Of a stretch of DNA of 64,000 nucleotides, positions 4,135-51,765 are shown piece by piece. The notes under the pieces were generated by a model. That model had not been told where the DNA came from. It was given only the letters and a program-made list of their open reading frames with translations, and made no database searches. The stretch's first letter is position 1; each line of letters begins with the position of its first letter. This DNA comes from Mucilaginibacter phyllosphaerae (GTDB lineage Bacteria > Bacteroidota > Bacteroidia > Sphingobacteriales > Sphingobacteriaceae): assembly GCF_004378255.1 (NCBI RefSeq), contig NZ_SNQG01000002.1, positions 434,001 through 498,000 of the forward strand, read 5' to 3'. The position numbers and the translations under genes are program-made.

Positions 4135-6096
4135 ATGAAATTGAGATTGATTGCCGGTTTTACGCTGGCCATTGTGGCTATTGGCAACATAAGCCAGGCC
4201 CAGCAGCAGCCACCGGTTAGCAACTATAACTATCACGAAGCATTTGCCCCGTTCTTCTACACCAAAAATGGTTCGGAGTTTCGCGCGGCGGATGGGCAGC
4301 CTGGGCCAAGATACTGGCAAAACCGGGCCGATTACCAGCTATCAGCAACCCTGAACGACCAAACTAACGAGGTAACCGGTGCCGAAGCATTAACCTATAC
4401 CAATAACAGCCCGCAGAAACTGGATTTTTTGTGGATGCAGTTAGATCAGAACTTGTTTAAGTCGGATTCGCGCGGATCGGCTATCATCCCCCCAAGCGGC
4501 AGCCGTAACGGCACCGGCGGGCGGGCAGCAAACCCCAATGCAGGTTACAAGATCAAATCTGTTAAGGTAGGGGATACCCCGGTTAAATTTTTGATCGAAG
4601 ATACCCGGATGCAGATCTTTTTACCATCGGCTGTTAACCCCAACGGCGGCCAGGTAAAACTGAATATCGAATATTCATTCGTGGTGCCCGAGTATGGGTC
4701 TGACCGTACCGGCATCCTGAACACCAAAAACGGTAAAATTTACACCGTGGCCCAGTGGTATCCGCGCATGTATGTTTATGATGATATTATGGGATGGAAT
4801 GCGGTGCCCTATACCGGCCCTGCCGAGTTTTACCTGGAATACGGTGATTTCGACCTGAGCATTACCGCCCCTGCAAACCATATCGTGGTTGCATCCGGCG
4901 AGTTGCAGAACCCGCAGGATGTTTATACGCCCGAGCAGTTGAAGCGTTGGGCACAGGCCGAAAAAAGCGAGCAAACGGTAGTTATCCGTTCTGCAAGCGA
5001 GGTTACCGAAGCGTCATCACGCCCGGCCGGTAAAAAAGAGCTTACCTGGCACTTTAAAATAAAAAATGCACGTGATGCCGCCTGGGGGTCATCAGCATCA
5101 TTTATTGTAGATGCCGCAAAAATGAATTTGCCAAGCGGTAAAAAGTCTACTGCTATATCTGCCTACCCGGTAGAAAGCGATGGCAACAGCGCATGGGGCC
5201 GCTCTACCGAGTATGTTAAAAAATCGATCGAATTTAACTCGCAAAAATGGTTCGAATATCCTTATCCTGCCGCCACCGCAGTTGCAGGTGTTGTGGGTGG
5301 AATGGAGTACCCCGGTATAGTATTTTGTGGGTATAAGGCAAAAAAAGATCAGCTATGGGGGGTTAACGACCACGAGTTTGGCCATACCTGGTTCCCGATG
5401 ATCGTAGGCTCTAACGAGCGTTTGTACGGCTGGATGGACGAAGGTTTTAATACGTTCATCAACACCCTAACTACCGCCGATTTTAATAAAGGTGAGTATG
5501 CCAGCAAAAAACGCGATATGCAGCAGGTTGGCGCATACCTTACCAGGCCCGAACTTGAGCCTGTTTTAAGCACTCCCGAAAACCTGAAAGAAGCTAACAC
5601 CGGATGGCTGTTATATTTTAAGCCGGGTATGGGCTTAACTTTATTACGCGAGCAGATCTTAGGCCCCGAGCGTTTTGATTTTGCATTCCGTACTTATATT
5701 GCGCGCTGGGCGTTTAAGCACCCAACACCCGATGATTTTTTCCGTACGATAGAAAATGCAGCCGGCGAAAACCTGAACTGGTTTTGGAGAGGCTGGTTTG
5801 TAAACAACTGGCGACTGGATGTTGGTGTAAGCGGTGTTAAATACGTTAATAACGACCCTGCCAAAGGTGCGTTGATAACCCTTGATAACCTGGATAAACT
5901 GGTAATGCCTGCCATACTGGAAATTAAGACCGTAAGCGGCAAGGTGGAACGCCTTAAACTGCCTGTAGAGATCTGGGAGCGTAATACCAGCTTTACAGTT
6001 AAGTACCCGTCTACAGAAGAAATTCAATCGGTAACTTATGACCCTGACAAGGTATTGCCCGACTATAACCCCGACAATAACGTTTGGAAAAAGTAA
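4135..6096 (+). CDS. M1 family zinc aminopeptidase, secreted
   Basis: 653 residues with an N-terminal signal peptide (cleavage near SQA-QQQ). The gluzincin zinc site is complete: H413-E414-F-G-H417 and E436 in WMDEGF, exactly the HEXXH-X18-E spacing of family M1. The upstream GGMEYPG segment corresponds to the family's GAMEN exopeptidase motif (here GGMEY). The N-terminal region (30-300) is the beta-sandwich domain typical of this family and the C-terminal part is short, so it is the compact Bacteroidota form. It probably trims peptides in the periplasm or outside the cell. It is followed by a strong rho-independent terminator. Confidence 0.93.
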
Positions 6097-6108
6097 CATG
6101 ATTAATAA

Positions 6109-6133
6109 AAACCCGGTTTAGGCCGGGTTTTTT
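6109..6133 (+). terminator. Rho-independent terminator after the M1 peptidase gene
   Basis: AAACCCGG (6109-6116), loop TTTAGG, CCGGGTTT (6123-6130), then a T run. The stem is a perfect 8 bp. Confidence 0.85.
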
Positions 6134-6205
6134 GTTGCATTTAATGTTAAAATTGAAACCTTTAACAACCCAAGCGGGTTAAACTATTCAGCTAAAACAT
6201 CAGCC

Positions 6206-6889
6206 ATGAAAAAAATACTTTCCGTTATCTTGATACTATCGTTTATCGTATCGGTAGCTGCCGCGCAAACAACCTTTAAAGGCACCGTTTACGAAGAGGG
6301 CACCAATACCCGCCTTAGTGATGTTTTTATACGCGATAATAACAGCAGGCAGGTAAGCATTACCGATAAAAACGGAAACTTTACCATCCGGGCGGCGGTA
6401 GGGCATACGCTGATATTCAACTCCCCCGGCTACCAGTCGGATACGCTGTACCTGATCGATCTGATGCCGAAAAAGATCATGCTGGCTACACAAACCATTG
6501 CGCTGAGGGCTGTAAACATTACGGCCACCCGCACGGCCTTTAACCCCAGGGCAGAATATCCCGAAGTGTATGAGAAGAGCAAGGTGTATGTTTTTTCGCC
6601 ATCTACCTGGTTTAGCGGCGAGGGTAAAAAAGCCCGCCGTTTAAAAAAGTACTTTCAGCGCGAGTCTGAGCAGCGCGCCATTGATGCAGCGTTTAGCCCG
6701 GCTTATGTAGGCAGCCTGGTACCCCTAAAAGGCACCGAGCTGGAAAACTTTATGACGCTGTATCGCCCCAACTATGCCTTTCTGCGCAGCAACAACCGCG
6801 AATCTATAGTGGCCTATATAAATGATAGCTACAAAAAGTACATCGCCCTGCCGCCAGATAAACGTGCGCCGCAGCCGCTTAAGCCATAA
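6206..6889 (+). CDS. Secreted CarboxypepD_reg-like domain protein
   Basis: 227 residues. A signal peptide (MKKILSVILILSFIVSVAAA, cleavage before QTT) is followed by a carboxypeptidase-regulatory-like beta-sandwich at about 22-100: TFKGTVYEEGTNTRLSDVFI ... SITDKNGNFTI ... VGHTLIFNSPGYQSDTLYL. This domain is common at the N-terminus of SusC-type receptors, but here it stands alone with a helical C-terminal part (KARRLKKYFQRESEQRAIDA) of unknown fold. Comparable stand-alone proteins are frequent in Bacteroidota and have no assigned role. It lies between a terminated peptidase gene and rpsU. Confidence 0.75.
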   Translation: MKKILSVILILSFIVSVAAAQTTFKGTVYEEGTNTRLSDVFIRDNNSRQVSITDKNGNFTIRAAVGHTLIFNSPGYQSDTLYLIDLMPKKIMLATQTIALRAVNITATRTAFNPRAEYPEVYEKSKVYVFSPSTWFSGEGKKARRLKKYFQRESEQRAIDAAFSPAYVGSLVPLKGTELENFMTLYRPNYAFLRSNNRESIVAYINDSYKKYIALPPDKRAPQPLKP

Positions 6890-6948
6890 TACTTTAACCG
6901 GTATAAAAAATTATAAAATATTGTATTTCAGAATTAAAAGTATTTTCT

Positions 6949-38016: not shown

Positions 38017-39027
38017 ATGTTAGCAGATAAATCAATTTTAATAACGGGCGGTACTGGCTCATTAGGTAAGGCTTTAACAAAGCATATCTTAACAAAATAT
38101 CCAAATGTTAAAAAGCTTGTTATCTTTTCAAGAGATGAGCAGAAGCAATTTGAGATGGCACAGGAGTACCCGCACGACAAATACCCTCAAATTAGATTTT
38201 TTATTGGCGATGTGAGAGATTTTGAGCGTGTGAAAAGAGCCCTTAAAGGAATTGATTACGTTATACATGCCGCCGCTATGAAACACGTACCAATTGCGGA
38301 ATATAACCCAATGGAGTGTGTTAAAACCAATATAATGGGTGCCGAAAATATCATTAATGCATGTTTAGAAACCTCTGTTGAAAGAGTTGTGGCGTTATCT
38401 ACAGATAAGGCAGCAGCCCCGGTTAATTTATACGGTGCAACCAAACTGGCATCAGACAAGTTGTTTGTTGCTGCAAATAACATCACCGGCTGGAACCCGA
38501 TCAAATTTTCTGTAGTGAGGTACGGTAACGTGATGGGCTCTAACGGTTCTGTGATCCCTTTTTTCATGAAAAAGAAAAAAACGGGCGTACTGCCTATTAC
38601 CGATGCTACCATGACCAGGTTCAACATCTCTTTACAGGGTGGCGTGGATATGGTAATGCATGCCCTTGAACATGCCTGGGGCGGTGAAATATTTGTACCT
38701 AAGATACCATCATACAAAGTTACTGATGTTGCCGAGGCTGTAGGGCCGGAGTGCGAAAAAGTAGTGATCGGTATCAGGCCGGGAGAAAAGATTCACGAAG
38801 AAATGATCACTTCTTCAGATTCATATTATACTTATGACCTGGGTAAATATTACACCATTTTACCTGCAACACACCGCTGGAAACTGGACGAATTTATCAC
38901 CCAATTTAATGCAGTGCAAGTGCCTTACGGCTTTAAATATAACTCTGAAGAAAACACCGAATGGGAAACCATCGAGGGTTTAAGAGAGTTGATAAAAGAA
39001 CACGTTGACCCAACTTTTGAAGTATAA
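38017..39027 (+). CDS. pseB: UDP-GlcNAc 4,6-dehydratase (inverting)
   Basis: 336 residues. ITGGTGSLGKALTKHIL (about 9-25) is the NAD site; the catalytic D-K and Y-K residues sit in ALSTDKAAAPVNLYGATKLA. Soluble, with no membrane segments, which separates it from the PglF/CapD type found at 59233. It produces UDP-2-acetamido-2,6-dideoxy-L-arabino-hexos-4-ulose, the first intermediate of pseudaminic acid. It lies 3 nt before pseC. Confidence 0.95.
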   Translation: MLADKSILITGGTGSLGKALTKHILTKYPNVKKLVIFSRDEQKQFEMAQEYPHDKYPQIRFFIGDVRDFERVKRALKGIDYVIHAAAMKHVPIAEYNPMECVKTNIMGAENIINACLETSVERVVALSTDKAAAPVNLYGATKLASDKLFVAANNITGWNPIKFSVVRYGNVMGSNGSVIPFFMKKKKTGVLPITDATMTRFNISLQGGVDMVMHALEHAWGGEIFVPKIPSYKVTDVAEAVGPECEKVVIGIRPGEKIHEEMITSSDSYYTYDLGKYYTILPATHRWKLDEFITQFNAVQVPYGFKYNSEENTEWETIEGLRELIKEHVDPTFEV

Positions 39028-39030
39028 GTT

Positions 39031-40224
39031 ATGAGTACTGTTATTCCTTACGGTCGCCAGCATATTACAGAGGAAGATATAACCGCTGTAATAGAAACGT
39101 TAAAGTCCGACTATTTAACCCAAGGCCCTAAAATTGTTGAATTTGAAGAAGCTTTTGCCAAATATATTGGCTGTAAATATGCGGTTGCTGTAGCTAACGG
39201 AACGGCGGCATTGCATTTATGTACCTTGGCGCTTGACGTTACCGAAGGGGATAAAGTAATTACAACACCTATAACTTTTGCGGCATCTGCCAATTGTGTT
39301 AGATACTGCGGCGGCGAAGTTGTTTTTGCGGATATAGATGCTGATACCTATTTACTGGATATTAATAATGTGAGAGCGTTATTAGAAAGTTCGCCAAAAG
39401 GTACCTATAAGGGTATTGTTCCGGTTGATTTTGCCGGCAGGGCAGTTAATCTGGAAGAATACAGGAAACTTGCCGATGAGTTTGGCTTGTGGATAATTGA
39501 AGATGCCTGCCATGCACCCGGCGGTTATTTTGTAGATAGCAAAGGCGAACAGCAATTTTGCGGAAACGGTAACTTTGCCGATCTGGCTATATTTTCATTC
39601 CACCCGGTGAAACACATTGCGTGTGGCGAAGGCGGTATGATCACCACAAATGACGAGGACTTATACAAAAAGCTGTTAAAGCTGCGCACCCACGGTATTA
39701 CAAAAAATGAAGACCAATATACAAACGATATAACCTTTGCTACAGGTGGCGTACAGGACGATAGCTACCCGGCATGGTATATGGAAATGCAAACCTTGGG
39801 TTACAATTATCGTTTAACAGATTTCCAGGCCGCTTTGGGTACAAGCCAACTTACACGGGCAAACGAGGGCATAGCACGTAGAAGAAATATCGCAAAAACT
39901 TATGAAGATGCCTTCACAGGCAAAGCATATATAGAAGGGCAATCCGGCGCTATTGAAGGGCATGCTTATCATTTATATATTATTGAAGCAACAGATCGCC
40001 TTGGTTTGTATAAATACCTGCGCAAGCAAGGCATCTATGCACAAATCCATTATATACCCTGCCATCTGATGCCTTACTACCGCGAGTTTGGCTGGAAAGA
40101 AGGCGACATGCCGTTATCTGAGGAGTATTACAAAAAATGCATCAGCTTGCCGATGTACCCTACTTTAACAGATGATGAGCTGAATTTTGTAATTAATACA
40201 ATAGATAGTTACTATAAACAATAA
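39031..40224 (+). CDS. pseC: UDP-4-amino-4,6-dideoxy-L-AltNAc transaminase
   Basis: 397 residues of the DegT/DnrJ/EryC1 PLP family. Start MSTVIPYGRQHITEEDITAV, anchor ANGTAALHLCTLAL, Asp in IIEDACHAPGG, and the PLP lysine in FSFHPVKHIACGEGGM. The substrate is the PseB product and the amino donor glutamate. The N-terminal IPYGRQHI segment is characteristic of PseC. It lies in the operon between pseB and the synthase-transferase fusion. Confidence 0.95.
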   Translation: MSTVIPYGRQHITEEDITAVIETLKSDYLTQGPKIVEFEEAFAKYIGCKYAVAVANGTAALHLCTLALDVTEGDKVITTPITFAASANCVRYCGGEVVFADIDADTYLLDINNVRALLESSPKGTYKGIVPVDFAGRAVNLEEYRKLADEFGLWIIEDACHAPGGYFVDSKGEQQFCGNGNFADLAIFSFHPVKHIACGEGGMITTNDEDLYKKLLKLRTHGITKNEDQYTNDITFATGGVQDDSYPAWYMEMQTLGYNYRLTDFQAALGTSQLTRANEGIARRRNIAKTYEDAFTGKAYIEGQSGAIEGHAYHLYIIEATDRLGLYKYLRKQGIYAQIHYIPCHLMPYYREFGWKEGDMPLSEEYYKKCISLPMYPTLTDDELNFVINTIDSYYKQ

Positions 40225-40228
40225 TACA

Positions 40229-42004
40229 ATGCATCCCTATCAAATTCTTGAAATAGCCAATACCCATGGTGGTAACCTGGATTATTTAATCTCATTAATT
40301 AATGAGTTCAACGAATTTAAAGGATACGGCATTAAATTTCAGCCGCTTCATCCGGATAAGATAGCTACAAAAGATTTTCCGTGGTATAATGTCTACGAAG
40401 AGCTTTTGTTTAGCGAGGATGAGTGGAAAACTATTATAGCCAAAGCTCAGGAAACTAAAGAGATCTGGTTAGATCTGTTTGACACCTATGGTGTAGAAAT
40501 ATTCGCTCAGAATAAACCTTTGGTTAAAGGGTTAAAACTACAACCATCTATTTTATATAACGAAGCTGTTTTAACTGCTTTAGAGCAGGAGAACATTAGC
40601 GGGCATTTGCTTATTATCAACGTAAGCGGATTAGAGATCCACGAGATTCATGAGCGTTTAAAATCGCTGGAAGAAAGGCTTAATCCATTAGAGATTTGGA
40701 TTGAGGTAGGTTTCCAATCATACCCTACCGAATTACAGGATTGCGGTTATGTGAAGATAGACTTGGTTAAGAAAGAGTTTAACAAGAAAGTTGTATTTGC
40801 AGACCATGCCGATGGTAAAGGTGAGGATACCGTTTGGCTGCCCATATTTGCAGCAATGAATGGTGCCGATATTATTGAAAAACACATTCTTCATTCAACG
40901 CTCGAAACTAAATATGATCATTTTTCGAGTATCGATGTTAATAAATACCGCACTTTTATAGAAAGGCTTAATAACTACATCGCGCTAAAAAGTATGCCGT
41001 TTATTAACCAGCGCGAACGTACTTACCTGGCTACCGGCATACAGATCCCGGTAAGTAAGCATGATGTTAAAGCGGGTAGCTTGTTGTCGTTAAAAACAGA
41101 CCTGGAGTTCAAAAGGTCGGGCTTAAGCGGGTTAAACACATTGCAAATAAAAGAATTGCAAAATAATATGCATATACTGGCTAAAGATGTACCTGCCGGT
41201 AAAACCTTTAAGCGCGAAGACTTTAAAAAGGCTACAATTGCAACAATTATTGCCTGCCGCTTAAAATCTACCCGGTTAGAAAAGAAAGCCCTGCTTAAAA
41301 TTGGCGATCTTACCTCGGTTGAGCATTGCATCCAAAGCTGCCTTAATTTTGATAACACCAATTATACTGTACTGGCCACGTCAGATCTGGATAGCGATGC
41401 CGAATTGGAGCATTATACTTATGATCCATCGGTAATATTTCACAAAGGTGACCCAGAGGATGTGATTAGAAGATACCTGGGCATTACATCAAAATTAAAA
41501 ATTGATGTGATTGTACGTATTACAGCAGATATGCCCTTTGTATCTAACGAAATTGTAAGTGTTTTATTGAAATCGCACTTTGAAACAGGTGCAGATTATA
41601 CCACGTCGGTAGCGGCAGCAGTTGGTACGTCAACAGAGATCATTAACGTATCGGCTTTAAATACCATTAAAGATCATTTCCCGAATGCGCAGTACTCTGA
41701 ATACATGACCTGGTATTTTTTAAGCAATCCGGAATACTTTAAGTTAAACTATGTTAACCTGCCTGATGAATTAGTGCGCAATTATAGGTTAACGCTTGAT
41801 TACCAGGAAGATTTGGATATGTTTAACCATATCCAGGCCCACCGGGATGAAACCAACGCACAGCCAACTATTACAGATTTGTTCAAGTATCTTGATGCTA
41901 ATCCGCAGATAGCTAATATAAACTCGCACTTAACATTAAAGTATAAAACCGACCCCGTTTTAATAGATACTTTAAATAAGGCTACAAAGATCAAAGGGGT
42001 ATAA
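40229..42004 (+). CDS. NeuB-like synthase fused to nonulosonate cytidylyltransferase
   Basis: 591 residues, two enzymes in one chain. Residues 1-255 are a divergent NeuB/SpsE-type TIM barrel: LEIANTHGGN, IKFQPLHPD, FADHADG (H193) and EKHIL (H219) keep the residues that bind metal and phosphoenolpyruvate in the family, but the two His are 26 residues apart instead of 21. About 270-330 is an SAF-like segment (HDVKAGSLLSLKTDLEFKRS). From about 336 a SpsF/PseF-like nucleotidyltransferase (IIACRLKSTRLEKKALLKIG ... RITADMPFV) follows. A dedicated PseI occurs downstream, so the first half is a second synthase or a scaffold. No free pseF exists in the cluster. Confidence 0.85.
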   Translation: MHPYQILEIANTHGGNLDYLISLINEFNEFKGYGIKFQPLHPDKIATKDFPWYNVYEELLFSEDEWKTIIAKAQETKEIWLDLFDTYGVEIFAQNKPLVKGLKLQPSILYNEAVLTALEQENISGHLLIINVSGLEIHEIHERLKSLEERLNPLEIWIEVGFQSYPTELQDCGYVKIDLVKKEFNKKVVFADHADGKGEDTVWLPIFAAMNGADIIEKHILHSTLETKYDHFSSIDVNKYRTFIERLNNYIALKSMPFINQRERTYLATGIQIPVSKHDVKAGSLLSLKTDLEFKRSGLSGLNTLQIKELQNNMHILAKDVPAGKTFKREDFKKATIATIIACRLKSTRLEKKALLKIGDLTSVEHCIQSCLNFDNTNYTVLATSDLDSDAELEHYTYDPSVIFHKGDPEDVIRRYLGITSKLKIDVIVRITADMPFVSNEIVSVLLKSHFETGADYTTSVAAAVGTSTEIINVSALNTIKDHFPNAQYSEYMTWYFLSNPEYFKLNYVNLPDELVRNYRLTLDYQEDLDMFNHIQAHRDETNAQPTITDLFKYLDANPQIANINSHLTLKYKTDPVLIDTLNKATKIKGV

Positions 42005-42029: not shown

Positions 42030-42998
42030 ATGAAAAGGAAAGTTGTTTTCAGGGCAGATGGCAGTCATAAAATAGGGTATGGGCACTTTATCAGATGTTT
42101 GGGTATTGCAGGCCTTATAAAAGATGATTTTGATTGTGCTTACGCTACCATATCGCCTACCCCTTACCAGGTGGCAGAAATTAATGCAGTTTGCAAGCTT
42201 ATACAGGTACCTGATAATAACGATTTTTTATCGTGCCTTGTGGGTGATGAAATAGTGGTAATTGATGATTATAACTCAACTGCCGAATTCCAGTTGGCCG
42301 TAAAAGCTAAAGGCTGCAAAGTGGTTTATATTGATGACCATAATGATAAGCAATACGTTTGCGATGTGCTGATAAACAATATACCGGGTTTTGCAGCAGA
42401 TAGTTTTAAAACAGCTGATTACACCAGGCTATACTTAGGTACAGATTACGCTTTGTTGCGCAGTGAGTTTTTAAATAAAGAATTACGCACAATTAAGCCG
42501 AATATAAATGAGGCTTTTTTAGCATTTGGCGGTAGCGATATTTTTAACCTGTCGCCACGTTTTATTAAGTGGCTAAACGAGGTAGATGCAACGCTTAAAA
42601 TAAACTTGCTGATAGGTGATGCCTATAAGCATTTTGATGATTTGCAGGAGTTTAGTAACTTAAATATCTATAAAAATATAAGTGCAGCCCAGGTTGCTAA
42701 CTTAATAGCACAATCAAACGTGTGTATAGTACCGGCAAGCAGTTTGTTAAATGAGGCCGCTGCCGTTAGCAGCAAGCTTATTATCGGTTATTTTGCCGAT
42801 AACCAGGTGATGCCCTACAATTATTTTGTAGACAATAAGCTGGCGCTTGGCTTAAATGATTACAGGGATGCTACATTTGAGCAGTTTGCAAGCACTTACA
42901 AAGCGGCCTTAACTGCAGATTACCTGGTAGATAATCAGCGTGAAGCATATCATTACCAACAAGGGGACAACCTTAAAAACATATTCTACAATGTCTGA
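42030..42998 (+). CDS. pseG: UDP-2,4-diacetamido-trideoxy-altropyranose hydrolase
   Basis: 322 residues. The N-terminal signature FRADGSHKIGYGHFIRCLGI (about 6-25) is typical of PseG: the glycine-rich loop and the catalytic His in GH. A GT-B-like fold follows (LAFGGSDIFNLSPRFIKWL, and PASSLLNEAAAVSSKLIIGY in the UDP site). It releases the free sugar from UDP with inversion before condensation by PseI. The start is ATG 42030. The last 8 bp overlap the next gene. Confidence 0.9.
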   Translation: MKRKVVFRADGSHKIGYGHFIRCLGIAGLIKDDFDCAYATISPTPYQVAEINAVCKLIQVPDNNDFLSCLVGDEIVVIDDYNSTAEFQLAVKAKGCKVVYIDDHNDKQYVCDVLINNIPGFAADSFKTADYTRLYLGTDYALLRSEFLNKELRTIKPNINEAFLAFGGSDIFNLSPRFIKWLNEVDATLKINLLIGDAYKHFDDLQEFSNLNIYKNISAAQVANLIAQSNVCIVPASSLLNEAAAVSSKLIIGYFADNQVMPYNYFVDNKLALGLNDYRDATFEQFASTYKAALTADYLVDNQREAYHYQQGDNLKNIFYNV

Positions 42999-43635
42999 AA
43001 ATATTAAGATAGGGCTTATTGGTTTTGGCAGTGTTGGTAAGCAGCTGTATAACGTGTTGTTAGAAAACGGCTATGCCGATGAGCAGATCTACATATACGC
43101 AGATGACCATGCTTTTAGCGATGCCGACCGCAGGTACCCTCTAAATGATTTTAAGCTGGATAAATTTAGGGACATCCATTTTATACCCACTATGGGGTAT
43201 CTTAGCAAACATATTAAATACCAGCTGCTTAATTACTTAATTGATAATAATTACCACATATTCACCTTTATACACCCAACAGCTTTTGTAAGTACAAACG
43301 CAAAAATTGGGCGTGGGGTAATCATATACCCTTTGTGTAATATAGATCAGGGTGCTGTAATTGATGATGGTGCCATCATTTTAAATTCCTCTATCGTAGC
43401 ACATGATACCTATGTGGGCAAGTGCGTGTATGTAGCGCCCGGGGTTTGTATGAGCGGGTTTATCAATATTGGCGAATTATCTTTTATTGGTTCGGGCGCG
43501 GTAATAGCCAACAATATTACTTTAGGCAAGAACTGTACAGTTGCAATGGGCACTTGTTTAACTAAATCGATACCGGATGATGCCTGTGTGATTGGCAACC
43601 CATTCCAAATAAAACAAAACATTAAATTGTATTAA
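42991..43635 (+). CDS. NeuD/PglD-like sugar acyltransferase
   Basis: 214 residues. N-terminal Rossmann-like sugar-binding part (IKIGLIGFGSVGKQLYNVLL, about 5-24) and a left-handed beta-helix of hexapeptides (about 100-200: TNAKIGRGVIIYPLCNIDQG, YVGKCVYVAPGVCMSG), ending CVIGNPFQIK. NeuD/PglD proteins N- or O-acetylate amino sugars from acetyl-CoA. It lies where a GNAT-type PseH would be expected, and no GNAT gene is present, so it may do the N4-acetylation. That is inference. It overlaps pseG by 8 bp. Confidence 0.85.
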   Translation: MSENIKIGLIGFGSVGKQLYNVLLENGYADEQIYIYADDHAFSDADRRYPLNDFKLDKFRDIHFIPTMGYLSKHIKYQLLNYLIDNNYHIFTFIHPTAFVSTNAKIGRGVIIYPLCNIDQGAVIDDGAIILNSSIVAHDTYVGKCVYVAPGVCMSGFINIGELSFIGSGAVIANNITLGKNCTVAMGTCLTKSIPDDACVIGNPFQIKQNIKLY

Positions 43636-43637
43636 GG

Positions 43638-44324
43638 ATGAAAATGGTAGCGATTATTACAGGGGTAAACAGGGGGCTTGGTAAGGCACTTGCAGATATA
43701 ATGCTGCAGGCAGGTGATACCATAGTTATATCCCTGTCGCGTTCTGTACATTCCGACCATGAGGGGTTAAGCACCGATAAATTTTTATTTATTAAAACAG
43801 ATCTGTCCGCTTCCTTTAACGGGGAAGCATTGACGCAGATTGGTAATATTATAAACAAGCAGCCGGTTTGGTTATTTAACAATGCAGGTAATATACAACC
43901 GTTAAACAAAGTTGGTGCATTTACAGCCGGAAGCATAGCCGATTCGGTTGCGATTAATATTACTTACCCGGTAAGTTTAATTAACTATATTATTAGTAAT
44001 TATAGCCACAATCAAATTACTTTTGTAAACATCACATCTGGTGCAGGCAGCAGGCCAATTGAAAACTGGGCTACATATTGTTCTTCAAAAGCATATATGC
44101 TAATGTTTTTTAAAACATTGGAGCAGGAGTATAAAGAAAACGAAAACTATAAATTTTACAGTATTGACCCCGGTACCATGGATACCGGCATGCAGCAGCA
44201 AATAAGGGACAGCAGCTTCCCTGCAAAAGATTACTTTACTACACTTAAAGATAATAACCAATTAGTGGCGCCACAAGCGGCCGCCCAAAATATACTTACA
44301 GAAATAAATTATCCGTTGGTATGA
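43638..44324 (+). CDS. Short-chain dehydrogenase/reductase
   Basis: 228 residues, classical SDR: VAIITGVNRGLGKALADIML (TGxxxGxG), NNAGNIQP (NNAG), catalytic Ser in ITSGAG and YCSSKAYML (YxxxK), then DPGTMDTGMQQQI. The sequence flavour is sepiapterin/benzil-reductase-like. SDRs of this size occur in some legionaminic-acid clusters (PtmA in Campylobacter). It probably reduces or oxidises a sugar intermediate. It overlaps the phosphoesterase by 4 bp (ATGA). Confidence 0.85.
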   Translation: MKMVAIITGVNRGLGKALADIMLQAGDTIVISLSRSVHSDHEGLSTDKFLFIKTDLSASFNGEALTQIGNIINKQPVWLFNNAGNIQPLNKVGAFTAGSIADSVAINITYPVSLINYIISNYSHNQITFVNITSGAGSRPIENWATYCSSKAYMLMFFKTLEQEYKENENYKFYSIDPGTMDTGMQQQIRDSSFPAKDYFTTLKDNNQLVAPQAAAQNILTEINYPLV

Positions 44325-45019
44325 AGATAGGCGTAATATCAGACATACATGGAAACCATTACGCCTTGCAGGCAGTGTTAAGTTCCGCCCGTAAAATAGG
44401 TGTGGAGCAGATTTTTGTGTTGGGTGATATTGTAGGATACTATTACAGGCCGGATTTGATATTAGAAATGCTTGCCGAATGGCCGCATCAATTTGTAAGG
44501 GGTAATCACGAAGATATTCTGCTAAACCTAAAAAAAGGGTTGTTAGATGCAGAAGAGTTAAAGAAAAAGTATGCAAGCGGGCATGAGCAGGCATTATGGC
44601 GTTTAACAGAGCAACAGCAGCAATATTTGTTTAACCTGCCAACACAGCTTTCGGTAAAGGTAAATGATACCACTTTTCAGCTCAACCATGGCAGTCCGCG
44701 TAGTATAGATGAATATTTATATCCTGACACGGATACCGAGATATTAGAAAGCTGCAATTCTAACGAGCATGATTTTGTGCTGATAGGCCACTCGCATTAT
44801 GCCTTTACCTATCAATGCAGGCATAGCCTGCTGGTAAATAGTGGTTCAGTAGGGCAGTCGAGGCAAAAAGGTGGGGCCGCTTATTGGTCGGTTATTGATA
44901 CCGATGATAAAAGTTTAGAAATGCAGGTTACGGCATATGATACAACCGCATTATTAAATGACGTTAAAACGTTTGATCCGGAGAGTGGATACTCCTATAA
45001 AATATTAACAAGAGAATGA
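44321..45019 (+). CDS. Metallophosphoesterase, YfcE/MJ0936-like
   Basis: 232 residues. All metal-binding motifs are present: SDIHGN, LGDIVGYY, RGNHEDI, LNHGSP and GHSHYAF. Such enzymes hydrolyse phosphomonoesters or diesters with two metal ions. It overlaps both neighbours by 4 bp (SDR and ATP-grasp), so it belongs to the sugar operon. The canonical pseudaminic route has no phosphatase step, so a phosphorylated intermediate or side product must exist here; its identity is unknown. Confidence 0.87.
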   Translation: MKIGVISDIHGNHYALQAVLSSARKIGVEQIFVLGDIVGYYYRPDLILEMLAEWPHQFVRGNHEDILLNLKKGLLDAEELKKKYASGHEQALWRLTEQQQQYLFNLPTQLSVKVNDTTFQLNHGSPRSIDEYLYPDTDTEILESCNSNEHDFVLIGHSHYAFTYQCRHSLLVNSGSVGQSRQKGGAAYWSVIDTDDKSLEMQVTAYDTTALLNDVKTFDPESGYSYKILTRE

Positions 45020-45963
45020 ATAAGAAAGTAAATGTATTGGTTACAGGTTGTGGCGGCGATATCGGCCAGAGCATTGGTAAAATATTAAACGAAAGCGCTT
45101 ATGTAAATAATTTAAGCGGTTGTGATATTTCTGATAAAAACGCAGCAAGGTTCATATTCTCTGATTTTTTTATAGGGCTAAAATGTACCGATCCGGCTTA
45201 TCTGGCAAACCTGGAACGCATAGTTGCCGAAAAAGATATTGATATTATTATACCTATTGCCGAGCCGGAATTAAGGTTTCTGTCGCAGAAAGGCGTTGTG
45301 GATACCATAGGTAAGGCAAAATTAATACTGGCTTCGCCGGAAGCAATGGAAGTTGGGTTTGATAAGTTAAAAACGGCGCAATTTTTAGAAGTACACAACC
45401 TGCCTTTTCCGGTAACGCAGTTAATAAACACGGTAGATCAGGTTTCTGCCTTTCCGGTGATACTTAAGTCGCGCACGGGGTCTGGCAGTGCTACAGTGAG
45501 CGTTGTTAAAGAGCAGGAAGAATTTGAGTTTCTTAAAAAACATAATCCGGATTTTATAGTTCAGGAATACCTGCCGGGCGATAATGAAGAATACACCTGT
45601 GGTGTATTCAGAAGCAAAAGCGGAGAGGTAAGGAACATCATTTTAAAAAGGACCTTAACAGGTGGTTACAGTGGCTATGGCGAAGTAATTAAGAATAATG
45701 AAATAGAGTCGCTTTTAAATGCTATTGCTGCAGATATTAACTTAATTGGCAGTATAAACGTACAGTTAAGGCTAACCGCTAAAGGTGCAGTTGTTTTTGA
45801 AATAAACCCGAGGTTTTCCAGCACGGTGCTGTTTAGGCACATGTTTGGCTTTGCCGACTTGCTCTGGTGTATTGAAGACACGCTGGATTGGGGAGTGGCG
45901 CCTTACCAGGAAACGGCTGTAGGTAAAAAGTTTTATAAAGGGTTTAACGAATACATATCCTGA
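45016..45963 (+). CDS. ATP-grasp ligase (carbamoyl-phosphate-synthase-like)
   Basis: 315 residues. The N-terminal Rossmann-like preATP domain (VNVLVTGCGGDIGQSIGKIL), the ATP-grasp central part (FPVILKSRTGSGSATVSVV, IVQEYLPGDNEEYTCGVF) and the metal-binding VFEINPRFSSTVLF (E and N) are intact. ATP-grasp enzymes join a carboxylate to an amine or thiol via acyl phosphate. Inside a nonulosonate cluster it may attach an amino or other acid to an amino sugar. It overlaps the phosphoesterase by 4 bp and is 4 nt from pseI. Confidence 0.87.
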   Translation: MNKKVNVLVTGCGGDIGQSIGKILNESAYVNNLSGCDISDKNAARFIFSDFFIGLKCTDPAYLANLERIVAEKDIDIIIPIAEPELRFLSQKGVVDTIGKAKLILASPEAMEVGFDKLKTAQFLEVHNLPFPVTQLINTVDQVSAFPVILKSRTGSGSATVSVVKEQEEFEFLKKHNPDFIVQEYLPGDNEEYTCGVFRSKSGEVRNIILKRTLTGGYSGYGEVIKNNEIESLLNAIAADINLIGSINVQLRLTAKGAVVFEINPRFSSTVLFRHMFGFADLLWCIEDTLDWGVAPYQETAVGKKFYKGFNEYIS

Positions 45964-45967
45964 TAGT

Positions 45968-47047
45968 ATGAACGAGTTTTATATTGGAGATAGAAAAATA
46001 GGTGGCGATGCCCCGTGTTTTATCATTGCAGAATTATCTGCCAACCATGGCGGCGATATAAATATCGCAAAAGAAACCATCAGAGCGGCAAAAAAAACCG
46101 GCGCCGATGCTATTAAGCTACAAACATTTACGCCCGATACCATTACGCTCGATTCTAAAAGAAAAGAGTTTTTAATAGATCATGGCACTATCTGGGATGG
46201 GCAATATTTGTATGATCTGTACAAAGAAACCACTCTTCCCTGGGAGTGGCATGCAGAATTATTTGCGGTAGCTAAAGAAGAAGGCTTAGTGTGCTTTTCA
46301 TCCCCATTTGATTTTACAGCAGTTGACCTGCTGGAGGAGTTGGGTGCACCGGCCTATAAAATTGCATCGCCAGAGATAATTGATATCCCGTTAATAGAGA
46401 AGTGCGCAAGAACCGGTAAACCAATTATCATCAGTACAGGTATAGCAACCCTGGCAGATATTAATTTGGCCACACAGGCTTGCAGAAAAGCAGGCAACAA
46501 CCAAATAATTTTGCTGCAGTGCACTACGGCTTACCCTGCCCGTTTAGATCAGGCTAATCTTAAAACGATAGCCAACCTGGTAGAAACATTTGATGCCATT
46601 GGCGGCCTGTCAGACCATACGCTGGGTATTGTCGCGCCAACCGTAGCAGTGGCCCTTGGTGCCAAGGTTATCGAGAAGCATTTTATATTGGATAAAGCTA
46701 TTGGCGGCGCTGATGCTTCGTTTTCTTTAGACCCGGAAGAATTTACACAGATGGTGAATTCTGTAAGAGATGCTGAACAGGCTATCGGTACGGTAAAATA
46801 TAAGGTAGAATCAAAAATATCCGGCTTATCTCAATTAGCATCACGCTCATTGTTTGTAGTGGAGGATGTAAAAGCAGGCGAAATTTTTACAGAAAAGAAT
46901 GTACGGTCTATAAGGCCGGGCAATGGTATGCACCCTAAATTTTATGCTGATGTTTTAGGTAAAAAAGCTACCGGGGATATTGAAAGGGGCACACCGCTAA
47001 CCTTTAACCTGGTTAGCGATTTCGACGCTGTGAACAGTTATAGATAA
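45968..47047 (+). CDS. pseI: Pseudaminic acid synthase
   Basis: 359 residues, NeuB family. NeuB barrel with AELSANHGGD, IKLQTFTPDTITLDSKR, LLQCTTAYPA, GGLSDHTLG and EKHFILDKAIGGADASFSLD; the metal-binding His residues are 21 apart as usual. A C-terminal SAF antifreeze-like domain (about 285-345) closes the active site of the partner subunit. It condenses 2,4-diacetamido-2,4,6-trideoxy-L-altrose with phosphoenolpyruvate. The motif details favour PseI over LegI or NeuB, but the substrate is not proven by sequence alone. Confidence 0.92.
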   Translation: MNEFYIGDRKIGGDAPCFIIAELSANHGGDINIAKETIRAAKKTGADAIKLQTFTPDTITLDSKRKEFLIDHGTIWDGQYLYDLYKETTLPWEWHAELFAVAKEEGLVCFSSPFDFTAVDLLEELGAPAYKIASPEIIDIPLIEKCARTGKPIIISTGIATLADINLATQACRKAGNNQIILLQCTTAYPARLDQANLKTIANLVETFDAIGGLSDHTLGIVAPTVAVALGAKVIEKHFILDKAIGGADASFSLDPEEFTQMVNSVRDAEQAIGTVKYKVESKISGLSQLASRSLFVVEDVKAGEIFTEKNVRSIRPGNGMHPKFYADVLGKKATGDIERGTPLTFNLVSDFDAVNSYR

Positions 47048-50847: not shown

Positions 50848-51765
50848 ATGGTGCTAAAAAAATACTCTATAGTTATTGTTAGCTGGAATGTAAGAGACTT
50901 ACTGATACAATCGATAAGTGATTTTGTAAACCGTAGCGATGTTGAAATTATTATTATTGATAATAACTCAAACGATGATAGCGTAGAGGCTGTGCGTTCC
51001 CAATTTCCGGAGGTAACAGTGGTAGATAATAAGGTCAATCTTGGCTTTGCAGGCGGTAACAACCAGGGTTTTGAAATGGCGACAGGCGAATATGTTTTTA
51101 TACTGAACCCTGATACTATTTGTACTTATGAGGCTTTGCAAATAATGGGCCGTTATTTAGATGAAAACCCTCAATGCGGTGCCGTTGGGCCAAAGATATT
51201 TTATGGCAACGGCGTAATACAAAAATCCTGCGCGCGCAGGTTGCCAACGGTGGGCAGTTTTTTTATAATGGAAGTGCTTAGGTTAAAAAAGGTAAAAAGT
51301 AAGGTTTTAAATCATTGGATGAAATATCCTTATAAATATGACCAGATTCAAAGTGTTGAAGCCATATCCGGCGCAGCAATATTGATAAGAGGAGCCTTAT
51401 TAAAGCAATTGAAGGGTTTTGATGAGATATATCTGCATACTGGTGAAGATATAGATCTTTGCAAAAGGGTAGTGGAAAGCGGCGCCGATATTATTTATAA
51501 TCCAGAAAGTTCATTGATACATTTGGCCGGACAAAGCAGTAAGCAAGATTTGCTTAAAGTTATGTTTAAAACACATAAAAGCAGCTACCAGTATTTTAAA
51601 CAAAACTCTGGCGTGGGTGCTGCATGGGTGTTTTGGGGTTTATTAATGGGCATTAAAATACCTGTTGATGTCTTTTACTACTTTATCAGATCTAAACTAT
51701 TTGGTAAAAACGAAGCGGAATATAAATTGAATTCATCGCTTTTTAAAAAGCTTACCGGCATATGA
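50848..51765 (+). CDS. Glycosyltransferase family 2
   Basis: 305 residues, GT-A fold. IVIVSWNVRDLLIQSISDF (about 8-26), DNNSNDDSVEAV, NLGFAGGNNQGF, and the DxD-like LNPDT motif (about 88-92). The C-terminal part has an amphipathic stretch. This pattern is the WbbL/rhamnosyltransferase-like group, so dTDP-rhamnose (rfbA, rfbD in the window) is a possible donor. It overlaps the polymerase gene by 4 bp. Confidence 0.87.
   Translation: MVLKKYSIVIVSWNVRDLLIQSISDFVNRSDVEIIIIDNNSNDDSVEAVRSQFPEVTVVDNKVNLGFAGGNNQGFEMATGEYVFILNPDTICTYEALQIMGRYLDENPQCGAVGPKIFYGNGVIQKSCARRLPTVGSFFIMEVLRLKKVKSKVLNHWMKYPYKYDQIQSVEAISGAAILIRGALLKQLKGFDEIYLHTGEDIDLCKRVVESGADIIYNPESSLIHLAGQSSKQDLLKVMFKTHKSSYQYFKQNSGVGAAWVFWGLLMGIKIPVDVFYYFIRSKLFGKNEAEYKLNSSLFKKLTGI

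Follow-up and report, generated by a model that had tools for sequence, protein, structure and literature searches.

The window examined here, a 64,000-nucleotide stretch of the Mucilaginibacter phyllosphaerae genome, carries on its forward strand a run of pseudaminic acid (Pse) biosynthesis genes. Embedded in it, between an acyltransferase gene and pseI, are genes for an SDR, a metallophosphoesterase (MPE) and an ATP-grasp ligase:

38017–39027, + strand: PseB dehydratase (TIGR03589, 512.1 bits, cut-off 407.75)
39031–40224, + strand: PseC aminotransferase (TIGR03588, 454.8 bits, cut-off 423.5)
40229–42004, + strand: divergent NeuB-like domain fused to a cytidylyltransferase, the PseF candidate (PF03102, 44.7 bits; PF02348, 78.8 bits)
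42030–42998, + strand: PseG, UDP-sugar hydrolase, without a C-terminal GNAT domain (TIGR03590, 161.5 bits, above cut-off)
42991–43635, + strand: NeuD-type hexapeptide acyltransferase (TIGR03570, 148.1 bits, just below the cut-off of 160.8)
43638–44324, + strand: classical SDR, sepiapterin/benzil-reductase-like, 228 aa (PF00106); replaceable tailoring member of the trio
44321–45019, + strand: calcineurin-like MPE, YfcE/SapH-like, 232 aa (PF12850, TIGR00040); core member
45016–45963, + strand: ATP-grasp ligase of the PRK12767 'carbamoyl phosphate synthase-like' family, 315 aa (PF02655, NF009402); core member
45968–47047, + strand: PseI, pseudaminic acid synthase (TIGR03586, 492.9 bits, cut-off 340.25)

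PseB, PseC, PseG and PseI all exceed their curated NCBIfam cut-offs, which identifies the region as a Pse biosynthesis locus. PseH (TIGR03585) was missing from the window's genome, which is 99.98% complete; the best match was partial and scored 27.5 bits against 93.1. The PseF model (TIGR03584) was also unmatched; the cytidylyltransferase half of 40229–42004, which fits PF02348 and KdsB-type models, is likely to be a functional substitute for PseF. A second NeuB-like domain stands beside a full PseI in a single Pse locus. The same fusion, 56% identical, occurs in a Flavobacterium pectinovorum locus (L017), where a YhcH-family (N-acetylneuraminate anomerase-like) gene and an unassigned 219-aa gene lie between it and PseG (5817–6933 of that locus), while in locus L016 the two halves are separate genes.

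A sequence-only reading of the trio had given the positions, strand and families of its three genes correctly, as Pfam and NCBIfam searches confirmed, and had rightly set them between the acyltransferase and pseI. The 4-bp overlaps it described number two rather than three, at the SDR/MPE and MPE/ATP-grasp junctions; the outer junctions are gaps, of 2 bp after the NeuD-type gene and 4 bp before pseI. Its deduction that such tight overlaps imply one joint task does not follow from the overlaps alone, because other gene pairs of the same operon overlap as well (e.g. at 51762–51765). What carries the argument is gene order conserved in eight genomes, as described below.

The three proteins have intact active-site residues. 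The MPE passes the TIGR00040 cut-off (57.8 against 56.25 bits) and the ATP-grasp protein that of NF009402 (220.7 against 218 bits); the best NCBIfam models for the SDR, NF005436 and NF005381, both score below cut-off. Among aligned orthologues, the SDR motifs TGxxxGxG (TG-V-N-R-G-L-G) and YxxxK (Y147-C-S-S-K151) are conserved, and the MPE metal ligands (D8, H10, D36, N62, H63, H123, H157 and H159) and the GSGS loop and E-I-N-P-R-F motif of the ATP-grasp protein are invariant. The two AlphaFold models, with mean pLDDT values of 84 and 93, were good. The closest fold to the ATP-grasp model was the uncharacterized 2pn1, followed by PurK, RizA and PylC; PRK12767/NF009402 is itself a family without an assigned function, within which the Pse-locus proteins form a distinct clade. 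The closest solved structure to the MPE model was SapH (3qfm; TMq 0.89). SapH and YfcE have their fold and metal site in common with the MPE, although at ~28% identity their substrates are not transferable.

Across the order (121 genomes), close homologues of the MPE were absent from all but the window's genome (next matches 26–35% identical), and among 345 genomes of the phylum both genes were found in only one other, G284, where they adjoin each other inside a Pse locus (~41% identity). When 84,980 species genomes were scanned for the ATP-grasp protein by short peptide patterns, a method that will have missed some members, four loci emerged: those of F. pectinovorum (L017), F. aquariorum (L018), a Winogradskyella MAG (L019) and Thiobacillus thioparus (L020). 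Each of the four is a Pse locus in which the order is MPE, ATP-grasp, PseI. Two further loci came from genus-wide searches (L052 in G1129 and L105 in G1261). Close homologues of the MPE/ATP-grasp pair are thus found upstream of pseI in Pse loci in 8/8 genomes from two phyla, comprising Sphingobacteriaceae-like bacteria, Flavobacterium, Winogradskyella, a distant Bacteroidota class and Thiobacillus. The ATP-grasp gene is directly upstream of pseI in these loci, except in L018, where formyltransferase and PIG-L deacetylase genes separate the two. No genome examined has the cassette outside a Pse locus. Pse loci that lack it are common, since PseI was above cut-off in eight of the 121 genomes of the order and the cassette was present in the window's genome alone. 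Plasmids yielded no ATP-grasp relative at E 1e-25, and their MPE matches were all <60% identical (about 28–35% among the matches listed). Viral contigs held four ATP-grasp relatives (27–30% identical), next to which neither an MPE nor a HAD relative was recognized.

In trees of seven cassette loci (L105, found later, was left out), the ATP-grasp proteins were monophyletic with 100/100 support, and the MPEs with 100/97. The Thiobacillus and G284 copies paired in both trees, indicating that the two genes have been inherited as a pair across two phyla. Six of the eight loci retain the SDR gene, always with its 4-bp overlap with the MPE gene; the MPE/ATP-grasp overlap is present in four of the eight. 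Conservation of these overlaps across cassette genomes shows that the arrangement is not due to chance. In place of the SDR gene, G284 carries genes for an extended SDR and a methyltransferase, and Thiobacillus one for a methyltransferase. The joint unit is therefore not the trio as first read but the MPE, the ATP-grasp ligase and PseI, which form the core, with the SDR as a third member of the cassette that other tailoring genes can replace. The NeuD-type acyltransferase also falls outside the core cassette, because copies (69–70% identical) are found in the two Flavobacterium loci L017 and L018 and are absent from the other five cassette loci; in the window and these two loci it could perform C4 acetylation.

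Comparison with cassette-free Pse loci reveals what the cassette replaces. All seven Pse loci of the order that lack the cassette have a PseH-like GNAT domain of a single family next to PseI, whether fused to the C terminus of PseG (L090, L093, L094), fused behind another GNAT (L089, L091) or free-standing (L092, L088). A profile built from six of the seven recovered L088, which was outside its building set, at 124 bits. In cassette loci the same domain was found in 0/8, the best score being that of a generic GNAT at 28 bits; this absence applies to about 8–20 kb around the cassette, except in the window's genome. The contrast has a one-sided Fisher probability of 1/6435, to be taken as no more than indicative: loci that are related do not count as independent, and the profile was itself built from six of the seven that carry the GNAT domain.

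Three pairs of loci match otherwise and differ essentially in having either the GNAT domain or the cassette. L094 consists of PseB, PseC, AKR, SDR2, a cytidylyltransferase, PseG::GNAT and PseI; L019 has the same genes, with PseG lacking the GNAT domain and followed by SDR-MPE-ATP-grasp and then PseI. Where L091 has GNAT3::GNAT before PseI, L105 has GNAT3, SDR-MPE-ATP-grasp and PseI; this pair further shares PseC, GNAT2, AKR, a cytidylyltransferase and a GSA-like aminotransferase. The third pair sets PseG::GNAT, formyltransferase, PIG-L and PseI (L093) against PseG, NeuD, SDR-MPE-ATP-grasp, formyltransferase, PIG-L and PseI (L018). We infer from this exchange that the cassette is the functional counterpart of the GNAT acyltransferase, using ATP instead of acyl-CoA. 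PseH and the PseH-like GNATs occupy the same position in the locus and presumably act at the same step, acylation of an amine of the Pse precursor, but they have the GNAT fold and use acyl-CoA, whereas the cassette comprises an ATP-grasp ligase, a phosphatase and an SDR.

The simpler proposal that the ATP-grasp protein just replaces PseH is weakened by two observations, though it is still likely. Cassette-free L088 carries a true PseH in addition to the GNAT domain beside PseI, which may therefore not be PseH, and L016 and L020 have another GNAT downstream of pseI. No PseG was recognized in the Pse loci L089, L091 and L105, in which a second GNAT-like protein (GNAT3) is encoded near pseI.

We consider it rather probable that the cassette is a Pse N-acylation module, in which the ATP-grasp enzyme ligates an acid in place of the PseH-like GNAT and the MPE takes off a phosphate. 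Judged by gene context, it probably puts an unusual acid on Pse by an undescribed, ATP-driven route. The ATP-grasp enzyme would use ATP to activate a small carboxylic acid as its acyl phosphate and couple it through an amide bond to one of the amino groups of the Pse precursor, standing in for the acyl-CoA-using GNAT domain. The favoured and presumed acceptor is the amino group that PseC installs at position 4, which would become N7 of Pse. Either before or after this ligation, the MPE would strip the acid of a phosphate that it carries, and the SDR, or the methyltransferase in other lineages, would tailor the acid by reduction or methylation. PseI would then condense the modified sugar with phosphoenolpyruvate. 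Acylation is supported by the nearest ATP-grasp folds, among them RizA and PylC, which are ligases that form amides, and PurK, which carboxylates an amine, and also by the lack of a PseH above cut-off in the window's genome. The earlier suggestion that the ATP-grasp enzyme adds a new substituent has strong backing from context, namely confinement to Pse loci among the genomes examined and replacement of the GNAT domain; acylation itself, the amino group used, the order of the steps and the phosphate handle on the precursor are parts of the model rather than of the observations.

An N-glyceroyl group is one candidate for the product. It is an attractive guess that the acid derives from phosphoglycerate, because this would explain the phosphatase and the methyltransferases alike.

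Remoter relatives place the cassette in a wider setting. Fourteen Flavobacterium ATP-grasp relatives (25–31% identical) lie in other surface-sugar loci, and 13 of them adjoin genes for an extended SDR and a phosphatase, the latter an MPE in six triads and an unrelated HAD protein in seven. In one of the MPE triads (L056, 7499–8199) the MPE is divided between two ORFs, perhaps the remains of a broken gene. A PHP-domain protein holds the phosphatase role in G490. That unrelated phosphatase folds occupy the same position suggests that the ATP-grasp reaction involves a phosphorylated intermediate, in keeping with the Campylobacter jejuni capsule system described below; that MPE, HAD or PHP proteins can all fill the role argues that a phosphatase is wanted beside this ligase. 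The existence of these triads excludes the idea that the trio is an invention of nonulosonate loci only. It had been anticipated that a trio equally frequent in loci without nonulosonate genes would point to another pathway; the search gave a divided answer, with orthologues of the pair in Pse loci only (8/8) and the looser triad in other amino-sugar loci. For three of the latter the label 'no nonulosonate' is inexact, as a NeuB-type synthase lies several kb away. Tentatively, and with somewhat less confidence than would make it our expectation, we suggest a general module of SDR, ATP-grasp ligase and interchangeable phosphatase (MPE, HAD or PHP) that links phospho-acids to the amino sugars of surface glycans and strips the phosphate, the Pse cassette being its nonulosonate branch and a source of N-acyl groups such as glyceroyl.

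An alternative is that the ligase amidates the carboxyl of a sugar acid with a phosphorylated amine, which the MPE then dephosphorylates. This combination of ligase and phosphatase has been demonstrated in the Campylobacter jejuni capsule, where the amidoligase Cj1438C uses serinol phosphate or ethanolamine phosphate and the HAD protein Cj1435 removes the phosphate afterwards (PMC11800397). The likeness to the cassette would lie in an ATP-dependent amide on a surface sugar followed by dephosphorylation, as proposed here; in C. jejuni, by contrast, it is the sugar carboxyl that is amidated, and the phosphatase is a HAD protein (the ligases are likened by description). Genes for UDP-sugar dehydrogenases close to some of the remoter triads would fit carboxyl amidation. 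Nevertheless, we regard it as unlikely: the cassette replaces an acyltransferase domain, which acts on amines and not on carboxyls; a DegT aminotransferase is encoded near 11 of the 13 remoter triads; and the ATP-grasp gene precedes pseI in gene order, a point at which the Pse carboxyl is not yet present.

It is somewhat less improbable, though still doubtful, that the ATP-grasp enzyme is the sole ligase and the MPE cleaves a nucleotide sugar or dinucleotide, in the manner of LpxH or SapH, with no direct role in acylation. SapH, the nearest solved relative of the MPE model, is an asymmetric Ap4A hydrolase and phosphodiesterase rather than a phosphomonoesterase, which may count against phosphate removal by the MPE; yet PseG already frees the sugar from UDP, and a phosphomonoester fits better with the presence of unrelated HAD and PHP phosphatases at the same place in the remoter triads. 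It seems very improbable that the trio belongs to the synthesis of a different sugar in this surface glycan and sits in the Pse operon by accident. Surface-sugar loci are mosaics, and related triads do occur in such loci without an adjacent PseI, but an accident would hardly account for placement just upstream of pseI in 8/8 genomes of two phyla with otherwise different flanking genes, or for exchange with an acyltransferase that close counterparts carry fused to PseG. N-acylation of Pse remains the reading that we prefer.

Nonulosonic acids vary between strains mainly in their N-acyl groups, and we know of no genes for many of these groups. The cassette is a direct candidate for such genes and a genomic marker with which unusual forms of Pse might be predicted, and its three enzymes are open to assay in vitro. 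If the wider triad works alike, it could account for many of the hydroxy-acid amides on bacterial amino sugars. Tannerella forsythia, also of the Bacteroidota, makes the N-glyceroyl pseudaminic acid Pse5Am7Gra, whose gene for the unusual N7-glyceroyl group is stated to be elusive (PMC6120980, PMC6388019). Among other unusual acyl groups, C. jejuni has 2,3-di-O-methylglyceroyl (PMC3068675), and marine bacteria have hydroxybutyryl, hydroxyglutaryl and malyl amides (PMC3210612).

N-acyl tailoring of nonulosonates is a step of a familiar type, and an ATP-grasp gene near NeuB-type genes is already on record: in the spsE/spsF locus of Clostridium acetobutylicum it encodes the aminoacyl ligase CA_C2189 (PMC4000134). 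That locus resembles the cassette in this respect, but, compared by description, it has no MPE listed and no link to GNAT exchange. The Shewanella sfm flagellin operon was considered as a precedent and rejected, the accessible part of its description mentioning no phosphatase. Literature searches, most subscription journals aside, found no description of an ATP-grasp/MPE cassette in Pse loci. Apparently new are the dedicated cassette of MPE and ATP-grasp ligase, the fact that it is confined to Pse loci and exchanges with the GNAT domain, and the recurring triad of SDR, ATP-grasp ligase and phosphatase.

Further modification genes accompany the cassette in some loci. Upstream of it in L052 (4727–7337) are genes for a WbuX-type N-acetyl sugar amidotransferase and its HisH- and WbuZ/HisF-like partners, which suggests that one sugar may bear an acetamidino group together with the acyl group putatively added by the cassette. 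A glutamate-1-semialdehyde-aminotransferase-like gene (PRK06209) and an aldo/keto reductase gene recur in Pse loci, whether or not the cassette is present, the former in L016 (14057–15475), L020 (5900–7189) and L052 (7361–8185) and also in L090, L091, L093 and L105. By analogy with the 8-amino nonulosonate reported from Flexibacter maritimus (PMC3210612), the product of this PRK06209-type gene might make such a sugar.
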